A stretch of 64,000 nucleotides of DNA, taken from Fermentimonas sp. (lineage in GTDB: Bacteria; Bacteroidota; Bacteroidia; Bacteroidales; Dysgonomonadaceae). Shown one piece after another: positions 7,536 to 41,308 of this stretch (within the stretch, counting starts at the first letter, position 1; every line of letters begins with the position of its first letter). The position numbers and the translations under genes are program-made. Location of the stretch: assembly GCA_015478775.1 (NCBI GenBank), contig JADMKP010000007.1, positions 310,001 to 374,000 on the forward strand, read 5' to 3'. The notes under the pieces were generated by a model. That model was not told where the DNA came from. It did no database searches and worked only from the letters and a program-made list of their open reading frames with translations.

Positions 7536-7820
7536 CACATAAATTGACAAGTTGTTGAAAAATTAACATAAATGGTTCACAATGGCATCTACCATCCCGG
7601 GGCTTTATTCTTGGTGGTCTAATAATGTCTTTCATCGGTATATTTATATTTCTGCCTTTAATGATGGCTAGGAAACAAGAACAGACAAGACAGACTTTGC
7701 TCAGTCTTTATCCATACCTTGCCCGTACATTGTTCGGTTAATACCCATTTACATACGAGCAAAATAATGACGAGGTGATAATAAGAACATTTTAATGAAA
7801 TGCACATGTGTTATGCTATT

Positions 7821-7951
7821 CTATACAAAACTGCACCAAATCATACATAATTATACCTTTACTTACCTTTTCATGCCAAATCGAGACAAACCATACAATA
7901 CCAGGACAAATCATACCAAAACCATACATAACGACGACAAATCGACCGTTT
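7821..7951 (+). repeat. Degenerate 10-bp tandem repeat array (about 13 units, consensus roughly YCATACCAAA)
   Basis: Consecutive decamers: ctatacaaaa ctgcaccaaa tcatacataa ttataccttt acttaccttt tcatgccaaa tcgagacaaa ccatacaata ccaggacaaa tcataccaaa (a) ccatacataa cgacgacaaa tcgaccgttt. Confidence 0.75.
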
Positions 7952-7983
7952 TTTGATAATCCCACAACAAACATTGACCTTTG
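7952..7983 (+). promoter_or_regulatory. Candidate Bacteroidota promoter (TTTG - N20 - GACCTTTG) for the DUF6266-like gene
   Basis: TTTG at 7952-7955, 20-nt spacer, GACCTTTG at 7976-7983 (one mismatch to TAnnTTTG), 37 nt upstream of ATG 8020. Confidence 0.5.
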
Positions 7984-8019
7984 AGCACATAAATTATTAA
8001 CACATAAATATAAAAAATT

Positions 8020-8694
8020 ATGGCACGTTTAAAAACTGGAATTAATGGAGACTTAACTGGCAAGGTTGGCACTGTTGTTGGTGCAAAATGGAGAGATATA
8101 TACTACATAAGGAGTTTGCCAACCAAAAAAAATAATCCAAGAACAAAAGGTCAGGTAAGGCAACGAAGCAAGCTTTCTGTAACAATGGAGTTTTTGAAAA
8201 GTATAACCCCGTACATAAGAATTGGTTATAAAGAATATTCAACGGGTAGGCTAACGGCATTTAATGCAGCAACTTCATACAACATAAAAAATGCAACCAC
8301 AGAAAACAACAATAAAATTGAATTAGATTTTTCGAAAGTACTGGTTACTCGAGGCTCTTTAATCACTGCTCCCGATATTAAATCTGAAATAGTTAATGGG
8401 CAATTACATTTTAGCTGGGATACAGCTTTAAAAGAAAATGCACGCTCAAACGATTTGGTGATGCTGCTTGCATACAGCCAAACAAAGAAAGAAGCTATTT
8501 ACAATATTTGTGTGGCACAAAGGTCTCACTCAACTGCACAAATGCGATTGCCATCTGCTTGGCATGAAGATATAATTCATTCATATATATCATTTAGGTC
8601 TGCTGATGGTGAATTGGTGTCTGATAGTATTACGATATCTCATCATTTTTTTGTAATTTTGAAAACTTTTAAAAAGTTTGATTTTAAGGACTAA
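8020..8694 (+). CDS. DUF6266-like family protein
   Basis: MARLKTGINGDLTGKVGTVVGAKWRDIYYIRSLPTKKNNPRTKGQVRQRSKLSVTMEFLKSI: recognisable N-terminal signature (G..G...GKVG.VVG..W....Y.R..P....NP.T..Q..QR). Function unknown. Confidence 0.75.
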   Translation: MARLKTGINGDLTGKVGTVVGAKWRDIYYIRSLPTKKNNPRTKGQVRQRSKLSVTMEFLKSITPYIRIGYKEYSTGRLTAFNAATSYNIKNATTENNNKIELDFSKVLVTRGSLITAPDIKSEIVNGQLHFSWDTALKENARSNDLVMLLAYSQTKKEAIYNICVAQRSHSTAQMRLPSAWHEDIIHSYISFRSADGELVSDSITISHHFFVILKTFKKFDFKD

Positions 8695-8706: not shown

Positions 8707-11169
8707 ATGAATATTTCGTACAATTGGCTCAAAGAGTATCTTCAATTTGATTTAACGCCAAAAGAGACAGCTAACGTGTTAACTCACATTGGGCTTGAAG
8801 CAGAGAGTATAGAAGAGGTGCAAACCGTAAAAGGGGGGTTGGAAGGATTGGTTATTGGTGAGGTTGTAACTTGCACAAATCATCCAAACTCTGATCACTT
8901 GCATCTTACAACAGTTAATATTGGCAACCCCAAAGAATTACTTAATATTGTTTGTGGAGCACCAAATGTGGCTGCCGGGCAAAAGGTTGTGGTTGCCACG
9001 GTTGGCACTACGCTCTACTCGGGTGATGAGGAGTTTAAGATAAAGCGCTCTAAGATTCGAGGAGAGGAGTCTCTTGGTATGATTTGCTCTGAGGCTGAGT
9101 TGGGCTTAAGTGATAATCACGATGGTATAATTGTTTTGCCCGAGGACACTAAAGTGGGCACTCTTGCAAAGGATTATTATAATATTAAAAGCGACTGGGT
9201 TATTGGTATTGATATTACGCCTAACCGTGTTGATGCCGCTTCTCATTATGGGGTGGCGCGCGATCTTGCAGCATGGCTTAAGCAGGCTGGCAAACAAGTT
9301 AAGTTGACTAAACCTTCCGTTGATCAGTTTGCAGTAGACACCGAGGATGGTGGCATTGAGGTGATTGTTGTGAATACCGAGGCTTGCCCAAGATATTCGG
9401 GGTTAACTATACGTGGTGTGAAGGTTGAAGAGAGCCCCGATTGGTTAAAAGAAAGGCTTCTGACGGTTGGTCTGAGACCTATAAATAATATTGTGGATAT
9501 CACTAATTTTATACTTCATGAAACTGGTCACCCTATGCATGCATTTGATGCGGGATATATAACCGGCAATGAGGTTGTAGTTAGAACATTGCCCGAAAAG
9601 ACAAAGTTTACAACTCTTGATGAAGAGGTGCGTGAGCTTAACGAAAGAGACCTGATGATTTGTAACTCGGATGAGGGCATGTGTATTGCAGGTGTTTTTG
9701 GCGGGATGAATTCGGGAGTAACATTTGATACTAAAGATGTTTTTCTTGAATCGGCATATTTTAACCCTACATGGGTAAGAAAAACTGCTCGCAGGCATGG
9801 ATTGAATACCGACTCATCTTTCCGATTTGAGCGTGGGGCTGATCCAAACAACACTGTTCATGTGCTTAAAAGAGCTGCTTTGCTTATTAAAGAGATTGCA
9901 GGGGGTGAAATTGCTGGTGAGATAAGGGATATATATCCAACTCCTATTAATCCTAAAACTGTAACGCTTTCGTATGAGAAGACTTCAAAGCTTATAGGTA
10001 AAGATATTCCGGCAGATGTTATTAAAAGCATTCTGGGGAGTTTGGAAATGGAGATTGAAAGTGAAACCGATGAAAATGTAACATTTAAGGTTCCTACATA
10101 TAGAGTAGATGTTACCCGTGATGTGGATGTTATTGAGGATATCTTACGCATTTATGGTTACAATAATATAGAGATTAGTGATTCGCTTAAGGCCAATCTT
10201 TCTTATCAAACCCTAACTGACAGAAAGAATAATCTGCAAACATTAATATCCGAACAGCTTACTGCTAACGGGTTTAATGAGATTATGTATAACTCTCTTA
10301 CTAAAAAGAGTTATTATGAATCGCAGGAAACATATCCTATTCAAAACTGTGTTTCTCTTGTAAATCCTTTGAGTGGCGATTTAAGTGTAATGCGTCAGAC
10401 ACTATTGTTTGGTGGACTTGAGAGCATTGCATACAACCGAAACAGAAAGCATGGTGATATTCGCTTTTATGAGTTTGGCAATTGCTATTTCTTTGACAAC
10501 AATAAGAAAAAAGAGGGAGATATTCTTGCTGAGTACTCTGAGTCAACATTTTTAGGGTTGTGGTTAAGTGGCCGAAGAACTCATAAAAATTGGGCTGCTC
10601 CCGAAGAAAACAGCTCTGTGTATGAACTCAAAGCTTATGTTGAGGGTATTGTTAACAGACTTGGAATTAAGAGTGATGAAATAGAATTTGAGCCAATTAA
10701 GAACGACCTGTTTTCTGCTGCTGCATCTGTTACTGTAAATCGTAAACAGCTGGGTTATTTTGGTATAGTATCAAAAAAACTTACCAAGCTTACGGATATT
10801 GACGCTGAGGTTTATTATGCTGAACTTAACTGGGATGCGTTGATGAAGATTACAGCTAAGAAGTCTGTTAAGTTTACCGAGATGTCTAAGTTCCCGGCTG
10901 TTAGCAGAGATTTAGCACTATTGATTGATAAAAACATCACCTTTGCAGAGATTGAACAAATTGCGTTGAAGTCGGAACGAAAATTACTAAAGAAGGTCTC
11001 ACTATTTGATGTGTATGAAGGTAAGAACTTACCCGAGGGCAAGAAATCATATGCGGTTAACTTCCAGATTCAAGATGTAGAGAAGACTCTAACCGATAAG
11101 CAGATCGACAAGGTGATGGCAAAGATTAGACAAAACTTAGAGAGAGAACTAAACGCGCAATTAAGATAA
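8707..11169 (+). CDS. pheT: Phenylalanine--tRNA ligase subunit beta
   Basis: 820 aa; MNISYNWLKEYLQFDLTPKETANVLTHIGLEAESIEEV, tRNA-binding domain, RPINNIVDITNFILHETGHPMHAFD, ferredoxin-fold anticodon-binding C-terminus. Confidence 0.98.
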   Translation: MNISYNWLKEYLQFDLTPKETANVLTHIGLEAESIEEVQTVKGGLEGLVIGEVVTCTNHPNSDHLHLTTVNIGNPKELLNIVCGAPNVAAGQKVVVATVGTTLYSGDEEFKIKRSKIRGEESLGMICSEAELGLSDNHDGIIVLPEDTKVGTLAKDYYNIKSDWVIGIDITPNRVDAASHYGVARDLAAWLKQAGKQVKLTKPSVDQFAVDTEDGGIEVIVVNTEACPRYSGLTIRGVKVEESPDWLKERLLTVGLRPINNIVDITNFILHETGHPMHAFDAGYITGNEVVVRTLPEKTKFTTLDEEVRELNERDLMICNSDEGMCIAGVFGGMNSGVTFDTKDVFLESAYFNPTWVRKTARRHGLNTDSSFRFERGADPNNTVHVLKRAALLIKEIAGGEIAGEIRDIYPTPINPKTVTLSYEKTSKLIGKDIPADVIKSILGSLEMEIESETDENVTFKVPTYRVDVTRDVDVIEDILRIYGYNNIEISDSLKANLSYQTLTDRKNNLQTLISEQLTANGFNEIMYNSLTKKSYYESQETYPIQNCVSLVNPLSGDLSVMRQTLLFGGLESIAYNRNRKHGDIRFYEFGNCYFFDNNKKKEGDILAEYSESTFLGLWLSGRRTHKNWAAPEENSSVYELKAYVEGIVNRLGIKSDEIEFEPIKNDLFSAAASVTVNRKQLGYFGIVSKKLTKLTDIDAEVYYAELNWDALMKITAKKSVKFTEMSKFPAVSRDLALLIDKNITFAEIEQIALKSERKLLKKVSLFDVYEGKNLPEGKKSYAVNFQIQDVEKTLTDKQIDKVMAKIRQNLERELNAQLR

Positions 11170-11211: not shown

Positions 11212-11946
11212 ATGGGAAGAGCATTTGAATATCGTAAAGCACGAAAAATGAAACGCTGGGGCAATATGTCGCGCGTTTTCACAAAACTGGGTAAGGAAAT
11301 AACAATCGCTGTAAAAGAGGGCGGCCCCGATCCGGAGACTAACCCACGCTTACGAGTACTTATTCAGCAATCTAAAAAGGAAAATATGCCCAAGGAAAAC
11401 GTAGAAAGGGCAATTAAGAAAGCTACAGATAAAGATTCGTCGGATTATAAAGAGGTTATATATGAGGGTTACGGGCCTTATGGTATTGCTATAGTTGTTG
11501 AAACGGCTACCGACAATACTACACGTACTGTAGCCAATGTACGCAGCTACTTTAATAAATATGGTGGTTCTTTAGGAACAACGGGTAGTCTTGAGTTTTT
11601 GTTTGACCATAAATGTGTTTTTAAAATTGCTCCTAAAGAGGGCGTGGATATTGATGAACTTGAACTTGAATTGATCGACTTTGGTGTGGATGAAATTGAG
11701 GTTGAAGAGGATGATATTCTTCTATATGGCAATTTTACTTCTCATTCCGAAATACAGAACTACTTAGAGAGTAATGGTTACGAAATCTTCTCTGCTGAAT
11801 TTGAGCGTATTCCACATGACACAAAAACTCTGGATGCGGAGCAACGTACGCAAATTGAAAAGCTTCTAGAGAAGTTTGAAGATGATGAGGATATTCAGAA
11901 TGTATTTCATAATATGGATGAAACAGGAGGAGAAGAGGACGAATAA
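11212..11946 (+). CDS. yebC: YebC/PmpR family protein
   Basis: MGRAFEYRKARKMKRWGNMSRVFTKLGKEITIAVKEGGPDPETNPRLR...NMPKENVERAIKKA. Confidence 0.95.
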   Translation: MGRAFEYRKARKMKRWGNMSRVFTKLGKEITIAVKEGGPDPETNPRLRVLIQQSKKENMPKENVERAIKKATDKDSSDYKEVIYEGYGPYGIAIVVETATDNTTRTVANVRSYFNKYGGSLGTTGSLEFLFDHKCVFKIAPKEGVDIDELELELIDFGVDEIEVEEDDILLYGNFTSHSEIQNYLESNGYEIFSAEFERIPHDTKTLDAEQRTQIEKLLEKFEDDEDIQNVFHNMDETGGEEDE

Positions 11947-11952
11947 TTCTAC

Positions 11953-12024
11953 CTGAATAGTAAGAATAAAACTACCTTAATAGGGAGATTAAAACTATCT
12001 GAATGGGGAGATTAAAACTATCTC
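11953..12024. repeat. Tandem 23-nt repeat, three copies, overlapping the meaB stop codon
   Basis: Copies 11953-11975 ctgaatagtaagaataaaactac; 11976-11998 cttaatagggagattaaaactat; 11999-12021 ctgaatggggagattaaaactat. Copies 2 and 3 share GGGAGATTAAAACTATCT exactly. Confidence 0.85.
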
Positions 12025-31772: not shown

Positions 31773-31800
31773 GTTTTTAGATATTAAAGAATATAAAATT

Positions 31801-31835
31801 AAGTGTCTCAGATAATTGATTATCTGAGACACTTT
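31801..31835 (+). terminator. Rho-independent terminator after trxB
   Basis: AAGTGTCTCAGATAA-TTGA-TTATCTGAGACACTT perfect 15-bp stem followed by T-run. Confidence 0.92.
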
Positions 31836-31998
31836 TTTAATGTAGTATTTGTATGTTTTCTTGAATTCTTTATTTATAAATATTATTATTAAATACCATT
31901 ATTTGCAATTATCTGTATTTAATCTTATATTTCATTAAAACCGCTTTAGTAATGAATATATCATGTTAACTAGATTTTATAAATGTATTTATTACTCT

Positions 31999-39985: not shown

Positions 39986-41308
39986 TTATTCATCGTCATC
40001 AGAAAACATATTTCCAAAGACATCTCCAAATTTGTCCAATAATCCCTGTTTTGTTGACTTCTTGTTTTTCTTACTTTCTTTTGCACTTTGTTTTGCACTT
40101 TGCTTTGATTCAGATCGTTTCTTATCAGAATAATGATCCTCATTACTTTTTTCAATAACCTCTTCTATTTCTAATTTACAGCTTTCTTGACCCATTAACA
40201 GCATGCCTAATGCCTGAGTGAAACTAGGGTTACTAATAAGTTCGGGAGCATTATTTATTAAAGACTTCTTGGCAGTAGCTCTACGAATAGGCATTTTAAG
40301 TTTTTGTCCGAGATACTCAGTGAGATTTTTTAGTTGAGAAGCACCGCCAGTTATAATAACGCCTGCGCCAAGTTTATTTTCATAGTTTGACAAACGTATT
40401 TGTTCAATAATATTAGCTGTTATTTCGTCTAAACGTAATGCAATTACCCTGTTAAGTTCAGTAAGATCAATATCAGGTTTAGAAGAGAAAGGAGATGAGA
40501 AGAACGGACTTTCATGTGTTTCCATTGCTTTCCCAAATTTAATCTTTAATTGCTCAGCATCACTTTCTGTAAAATTTAGAGCGCTAATATCCTTTGTTAT
40601 ACTTTTTCCTCCAAAAGGAATAACAACAAATCTTCTAAGAATACCATCTTTGTAAACCGATACGGAGGTAGTACCTGCACCAAAATCTATAAATACACAA
40701 CCAAGCTCTTTTTCCTCGTCATTGAGAGTTACCTCAGCAGAAGCCAAGGCACCAACTATATAATCTGCTATTGGCAATTTAGCCTTTCCGGTTACACTTT
40801 TTTCTATATTTGATAGGAGATTGGGCCTTCCAACAACTATCTGAAAGGATGCTTCGACCTCAGTCCCTGCAACCCCAACAGGATTTTTCTCTGTTTTAGC
40901 ATCTACATAATATTCAACGTCAGCTACTGCGTAGTTTTTTTGCAAATCGGGTGTATACTTTTTTGCAGAGCTATTAAGTTGATCAACTACCTCTTGACTT
41001 ACTATTCCACCTGAAGAGAGCATTTTCCTTTCTCTGAATTCCAGAGTGTGCAGCGATTGTCCCGTTAGCGAAACATATACTTTGCCAATTTTGTCACCAA
41101 TGCTATTCTCAAGCATTGTCAATATTTTTCGAATACTCGCTCCTGCTTCCTCAATATTATAGACCATTCCTCTTCTTACAGAGTTACCAGAATCAATGAT
41201 TTCACTATCCATTATTGAAATCACATTGTTCTCATTTTTTCGTCCTACAACACCTTTTATCTTTGAGGTTCCAAGATCAATTACAGCTATAAAATCAGAT
41301 TGCGTCAT
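39986..41308 (-). CDS. ftsA: Cell division protein FtsA
   Basis: FIAVIDLGTSKIKGVVGRKNE, CVFIDFGAGTTSVSVYKDG actin-fold motifs; C-terminal amphipathic GLLDKFGDVFGNMF. Confidence 0.96.
   Translation of the reverse strand: MTQSDFIAVIDLGTSKIKGVVGRKNENNVISIMDSEIIDSGNSVRRGMVYNIEEAGASIRKILTMLENSIGDKIGKVYVSLTGQSLHTLEFRERKMLSSGGIVSQEVVDQLNSSAKKYTPDLQKNYAVADVEYYVDAKTEKNPVGVAGTEVEASFQIVVGRPNLLSNIEKSVTGKAKLPIADYIVGALASAEVTLNDEEKELGCVFIDFGAGTTSVSVYKDGILRRFVVIPFGGKSITKDISALNFTESDAEQLKIKFGKAMETHESPFFSSPFSSKPDIDLTELNRVIALRLDEITANIIEQIRLSNYENKLGAGVIITGGASQLKNLTEYLGQKLKMPIRRATAKKSLINNAPELISNPSFTQALGMLLMGQESCKLEIEEVIEKSNEDHYSDKKRSESKQSAKQSAKESKKNKKSTKQGLLDKFGDVFGNMFSDDDE

Follow-up and report, generated by a model that had tools for sequence, protein, structure and literature searches.

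What is the meaning of a row of about 13 degenerate 10-bp units that a DUF6266 gene has directly upstream of its promoter-like boxes? The row lies in the window, that is, the whole 64,000-nucleotide stretch of Fermentimonas sp. DNA that was analysed, and the features around it are collected in Table 1. The units read, in order, CTATACAAAA CTGCACCAAA TCATACATAA TTATACCTTT ACTTACCTTT, then TCATGCCAAA TCGAGACAAA CCATACAATA CCAGGACAAA TCATACCAAA, and after the slip at 7921 CCATACATAA CGACGACAAA TCGACCG. An earlier note had described them as a helically phased, G-poor array of about 13 decamers with one 1-bp slip, and the array proved to be real. The identity at lag 10 within 7821-7951 is 0.479 versus 0.306 in dinucleotide shuffles (z 4.3; reached by 0 of 2000 shuffles). 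Lag 20 gives z 4.5, and the helical phasing is supported. The part before the slip (7821-7920) has a lag-10 z of 5.1. Over 7750-8019, the span that the earlier note had proposed for this check, z is 2.7, as the signal is diluted by the broader span. The strongest 100-bp lag-10 window in the 64 kb is the array itself (0.54), compared with 0.47 for the runner-up elsewhere and 0.48 for the highest among 30 shuffled windows. The base counts of 7821-7951 are A55 C36 G10 T30, which bears out the poverty in G on the + strand.

Table 1. Features at the DUF6266 locus of the window (positions counted from the first letter of the window)
Feature	Position	Strand	Basis
Degenerate copy of the dispersed intergenic 11-bp-unit element (TACCTTGCCCG TACATTGTTCG GTTAATACCC...)	7693..7780	+	lag 11 z 4.6
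Decamer array, about 13 degenerate units, consensus about YCATACCAAA, core [GT]AC[AC]AAW, 1-bp slip at 7921	7821..7948	+	sequence, lag-10 periodicity
Array end GACCG, 35 bp ahead of CTTTG in the -7 box	7944..7948	+	35-36 bp spacing recurs in 10-bp arrays
Candidate Bacteroidota promoter: TTTG 7952-7955 (-33), GACCTTTG 7976-7983 (-7)	7952..7983	+	sequence; kept in orthologue L027
DUF6266 gene, 224 aa, basic N-domain and FN3-like C-domain	8020..8694	+	PF19781 E 1.9e-53
Last DUF6266 codons, overlying DNA that matches the pheT promoter of relatives (CATCATTTTTTTGTAATTTTG)	8641..8694	+	
pheT (phenylalanyl-tRNA synthetase beta), unrelated neighbour	8707..11169	+	Pfam

Could the array work as RNA, or code for protein? 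Both possibilities were rejected. Rfam has no match anywhere in the 64-kb window, shuffled sequences fold as well as the array (z 1.1), and the array lies upstream of the promoter-like boxes. As for coding, two 10-bp indels shift the frame relative to the orthologue, and the middles of the two frames are unlike. It may be recorded here that a 53-aa open frame spans the array (7795-7956), and that a 65-aa frame occurs at the equivalent place in the orthologue (L027). Other repeats were also noticed in the window. A 23-bp tandem repeat (CTACCTGAATAGGGAGATTAAAA), 3.1 copies long and with about two helical turns to the unit, occupies 11949-12020, directly after the gene at 11212-11946. A 12-bp tandem repeat of 2.9 copies (ACTTTGTTTTGC) lies at 40046-40107, and a window-wide scan finds raised self-similarity at lags 13, 16, 25, 29 and 31 within 31796-31960.

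Is the array peculiar to this one gene? We scored periods of 6-26 bp in 55-bp windows, with 60 dinucleotide shuffles per region and z>4 as the call for an array, in the upstream regions of 108 DUF6266 (PF19781) genes from the same order (set 1). The controls were 162 upstream regions with a gap of at least 200 bp, taken from 800 kb of two genomes, that of the window (G000) and G024. Period 11 exceeds z>4 in 45% of the DUF6266 upstreams versus 1.2% of the controls, period 10 in 9.3% versus 0.6%, and period 22 in 20% versus 1.9%; periods 20 and 21 are slightly up, and the other periods within 6-26 bp are not raised. A 10- or 11-bp array is thus present in 57 of the 108 (53%) and in 3 of the 162 controls (1.9%), with a Fisher p of 2e-24 that is overstated because only two genomes supply the controls and the DUF6266 loci share ancestry. 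Set 2, which consists of 27 DUF6266 upstreams from other Bacteroidota families, goes part of the way to answer this: period 11 is found in 44% and period 10 in 15% of them. Downstream of DUF6266 genes (n=44) the arrays of period 10 or 11 reach at most 4.5%, and at -800..-400 (n=39) at most 2.6%, without enrichment in either place; upstream of HU-HIG genes they are found in 0 of 18.

The search was also made in the opposite direction. The 11-bp doublet GTAYCAAGTCCGTAYCAAG, with at most one mismatch, has 12 matches at 10 distinct places in 295 genomes of the order, and eight of these places sit 78-113 bp upstream of a same-strand DUF6266 match. The other two are a solitary array in a genome that has DUF6266 (G254) and a place where no DUF6266 was found (G181). 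Similarly, the end motif AAATNRACCGNTWTTT marks six 10-bp arrays in the genus (two in G000, one in G001, two in G008 and one in G013), all of them upstream of DUF6266, and the remaining genus matches of this pattern show no array by eye. The association between array and DUF6266 is specific and reciprocal, and the 10-/11-bp arrays are a Bacteroidota-wide class at DUF6266 genes, with about a third of set 1 (34 of 108) showing no array in this test (z<3 at each of 10, 11 and 20-22). The link that the earlier note had drawn between array and gene therefore extends to further DUF6266 genes, the close G001 orthologue among them. Its 10-bp unit holds for the window array and not for the class, which is mostly of 11 bp and has unit sequences that vary widely among loci.

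How do such arrays change in evolution? Compared with the G001 orthologue (L027), the window array shows one 10-bp deletion and one 10-bp insertion. The identity is 63% in the array (gaps counted), 88% in the 5' flank, 73% in the promoter and leader, and 87% at the start of the coding sequence. Two paralogues (L164 and L167) have arrays of visibly unequal unit number. Whole units gained and lost between orthologues, and unequal arrays in paralogues, are what a functionless minisatellite left behind by neutral replication slippage might give; however, such a remnant fits poorly with an enrichment confined to 10 and 11 bp and multiples of these, with the phylum-wide restriction to -400..-30 of DUF6266 genes, and with a preferred spacing to the promoter. 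We regard it as the least probable of the explanations considered.

The array also has a preferred spacing to the promoter-like boxes. The boxes TTTG and GACCTTTG are found where the earlier note had put them, adjoining the array. We take them to be of the Bacteroidota promoter type (-33/-7), and they would be the working promoter of the gene. Measured from the array end [GA]ACC[GC] to [ACT]TT[TC]G, the distance to the -7 box is 35-36 bp in 9 of 15 loci with 10-bp arrays versus 1 of 210 control upstreams, the boxes having been picked after inspection of the same loci. With this spacing the array therefore stops directly upstream of the -33 box. A sigma-70 scan found no excess.

One explanation, which we consider somewhat more probable than its opposite, is that the window array is a cis-regulatory element, cooperatively bound by a protein and controlling the DUF6266 gene. 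Degenerate binding sites would stand in a tandem row, one per helical turn, which would bring them to one face of the DNA. A protein would bind them cooperatively, with one subunit per turn, and the bound protein would act on transcription by controlling the DUF6266 promoter from directly upstream of the -33 box. The pitch, the promoter spacing, a recognisable consensus and the turnover by whole units all fit sites for a protein that binds cooperatively at the DNA level. The specific and reciprocal association with DUF6266, the agreement of array class with the DUF6266 tree and the correlation of DUF6266 number with that of a dispersed 11-bp element (both below) also speak for it; the third of set 1 that shows no array and the lack of a significant consensus among the 10-bp units speak against it.

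Is it the unit or merely the pitch that is kept? The 36 non-redundant 11-bp arrays have a degenerate consensus in common, CAAGTCCGTAT on the coding strand, with an IC of 3.77 versus 3.15+-0.10 for the null (null maximum 3.45), which is what a recognised site should show. Over 11 non-redundant arrays of 10 bp there is no significant common consensus (z 0.9); within the genus, the 10-bp arrays have by eye the [GT]AC[AC]AAW core in common. Alternatively, any repeat of 10-11 bp may sum small bends into an intrinsic curvature, and selection would then keep the pitch and not the letters. The unit letters do vary at a constant pitch, and a position upstream of promoter-like boxes would suit a bend, but a common consensus of the 11-bp units is not expected from pitch alone. 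Moreover, A/T tracts of 4 or more are rare in the 11-bp arrays (0.9 per 100 bp, versus 2.3 in all upstreams and about 3.1 in the 10-bp arrays), and these counts do not give the tracts of 4 or more at a pitch of about 10.5 bp that make phased A-tract curved DNA. The earlier note had offered phased A-tract curvature as an alternative to protein binding; as a general basis it is not supported, and intrinsic curvature of any kind seems quite improbable.

There is a further question of what the 11-bp element upstream of the decamer array is, which the earlier note had not mentioned. R1, a sequence model without base pairs, finds it as G000:C7:317694-317778 with E 2.9e-17. A pattern search of the own genome gives 19 matches to the element versus 3 in the control, and 16 of 17 inspected matches are intergenic, in any orientation relative to genes. 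R1 matches G000 at 48 places, and the 39 genomes of the genus have 0-55 matches each; the model favours genomes near G000 because it was built from G000 copies. Across these 39 genomes the number of elements follows the number of DUF6266 genes (rho 0.73, p 1e-7, kinship uncorrected). Genomes with at least 4 DUF6266 genes have 23-55 matches; among the 12 without DUF6266, 11 have 0 elements, and the exception is G324 (an assembly that is 85% complete and in 440 contigs), where 35 elements occur although DUF6266 has no match. For G319-G332, several DUF6266 genes had been predicted only in G324 and G330; 10 were found in G330, 0 in G324, 3 in G320 and 2 in G319, so that the prediction was at best half right.

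These copies bring to mind REP/BIME elements, which have RAYT transposases (PMC2817692, PMC3116915). Both are dispersed and intergenic, and in both the number tracks a gene family with a copy of its own; the elements here differ in their 11-bp direct-repeat units. The whole might then be a selfish or structural repeat system that organises or mobilises DNA and does not control the DUF6266 promoter. DUF6266 would be the partner protein, the array at its gene the home copy, and each dispersed 11-bp element a solitary copy. The 48 matches in the own genome, their intergenic places and the correlation in number all agree with it. The history and setting of the gene agree as well. In G000 and G001, DUF6266 seems to be a gain upstream of pheT: other genomes of the genus have pheT without an adjoining DUF6266, related genomes (L213-L222) have the CATCATTTTTTTGTAATTTTG motif ahead of pheT as non-coding DNA, and the final codons of DUF6266 appear to have arisen from the old pheT promoter DNA. 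Some other DUF6266 copies are within a phage-lysis-like gene run, and the window copy stands alone. At two loci (L174, 17812-19998, and L052) the gene has as neighbours one for a putative membrane protein of 160-161 aa and a GH19-like lysozyme gene, and the three together make a putative lysis-like module.

Several observations stand against such a system. The predicted fold of DUF6266 (AF2, Foldseek) is not that of a transposase, including the tyrosine (Y1, HUH) type of RAYT, and the likeness is one of behaviour and not of membership. When 16 elements of G001 were compared with G000 DNA, most had matching surroundings in both, some with an altered interior, which indicates that they have rarely moved. 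In addition, the 10-bp arrays hold a preferred spacing to the promoter boxes, and G324 has its elements with no DUF6266 match. We think a REP-like system unlikely. On the other hand, the regulatory reading of the window array may not cover the 11-bp class with one promoter-based role, since the dispersed copies take any orientation and many 11-bp arrays are far from a promoter or form hairpins. Single 11-bp loci fold well (L003 z -4.4, L132 z -5.1); a hairpin as a general trait of the 11-bp elements was rejected, as RNAalifold gave no consensus pair over 15 dispersed copies.

If a protein binds the array, which one is it? The most speculative candidate is DUF6266, which would bind by way of its basic N-domain; we hold it doubtful. 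The AF2 model of DUF6266 has a pLDDT of 92.9, and Foldseek identifies the C-domain as FN3-like. The mean net charge over 52 members is +10.9 for the N-domain and -7 for the C-domain. The N-domain modelled alone (pLDDT 81) is without a solved relative and unlike any solved DNA-binding fold. A phage origin was rejected, with no tblastn match in the phage collection and nothing below E 0.1 in PHROGs. The array class tracks the DUF6266 protein tree (24 label changes versus 37.9 when shuffled, 0 of 200 as low), in a test that leans towards clustering, as up to 11 loci were hand-labelled as 10-bp and labels are common to close relatives. Strict matching of protein and array is argued against by a locus of G008 (L033). 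Its flanks and array are 93-100% identical to the orthologue in G013 (L051), and the block from about the start codon through DUF6266 and the next gene is 92-100% identical to a paralogue (L052); the coding block was exchanged between paralogous loci, with the upstream array left unchanged. A bolder and unlikely version is that DUF6266 proteins would found a DNA-binding family of Bacteroidota and form a self-propagating or genome-organising kind of system unlike REP/RAYT or Par, acting on the arrays of its own genes and on dispersed elements, where one subunit might sit on each helical turn of 10- or 11-bp arrays and of tens of dispersed 11-bp elements.

Protein-bound arrays with 10- and 11-bp units do exist, as the CarH operators (PMC9304148) and parC (PMC9426499) demonstrate. 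The operators of CarH and CarA, of the MerR family, are tandem 11-bp direct repeats across the -35 or -10 region, three to five in number and with a TnnACA motif (PMC9304148). Like the window array, they are degenerate direct repeats, one per helical turn, at a promoter. The window array differs in having about 13 units of 10 bp and in ending upstream of -33; the 11-bp element of the window is further upstream, and no CarH or other MerR gene is next to the locus. At another locus (L041) an HTH_17/MerR_1 gene is upstream of DUF6266.

The parC centromeres of R1 (11 bp) and pB171 (10 bp) are bound by ParR (PMC9426499). Their direct repeats of 10-11 bp, with a sequence that varies between systems, resemble the DUF6266 arrays, which differ in being chromosomal and tied to DUF6266. 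It might be supposed that a mobile element carries DUF6266 and that the array serves it as a site like a centromere or an origin, of the parC or iteron type. The unit lengths equal those of pB171 and R1, the units vary between copies like incompatibility groups, and one DUF6266 locus has a DUF6371/zinc-ribbon gene upstream. Yet the window copy is alone, with no partition or replication gene next to it and with a GH5-like gene and pheT on its flanks in place of an adjacent parM and parR, and this makes such a site very improbable.

Two other kinds of short intergenic repeats deserve comparison. The BrickBuilt MITE of Porphyromonas gingivalis (PMC4596501) is likewise an intergenic tandem repeat of Bacteroidota, with a 23-nt unit between a leader and a tail with inverted ends; the units here are of 10 and 11 bp, and a link to DUF6266 is not known for BrickBuilt. 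The TAACTGA heptamer repeats of Beggiatoaceae, Cyanobacteria and some Bacteroidetes (PMC4679880) are also short tandem repeats upstream of genes, but have a 7-bp unit of a single fixed sequence and are mostly near start codons. No 10- or 11-bp array of this kind in Bacteroidetes was found in the literature searched, and the open-access literature searched gave no paper with the term DUF6266.

The finding means that an unannotated DNA element tracks, throughout a phylum, a widespread gene family of unknown function. The array is a direct handle on the role of DUF6266 and a cheap means to detect further members of the family. It also offers a case in which to test how a helically phased array can change by entire units and yet keep its pitch.
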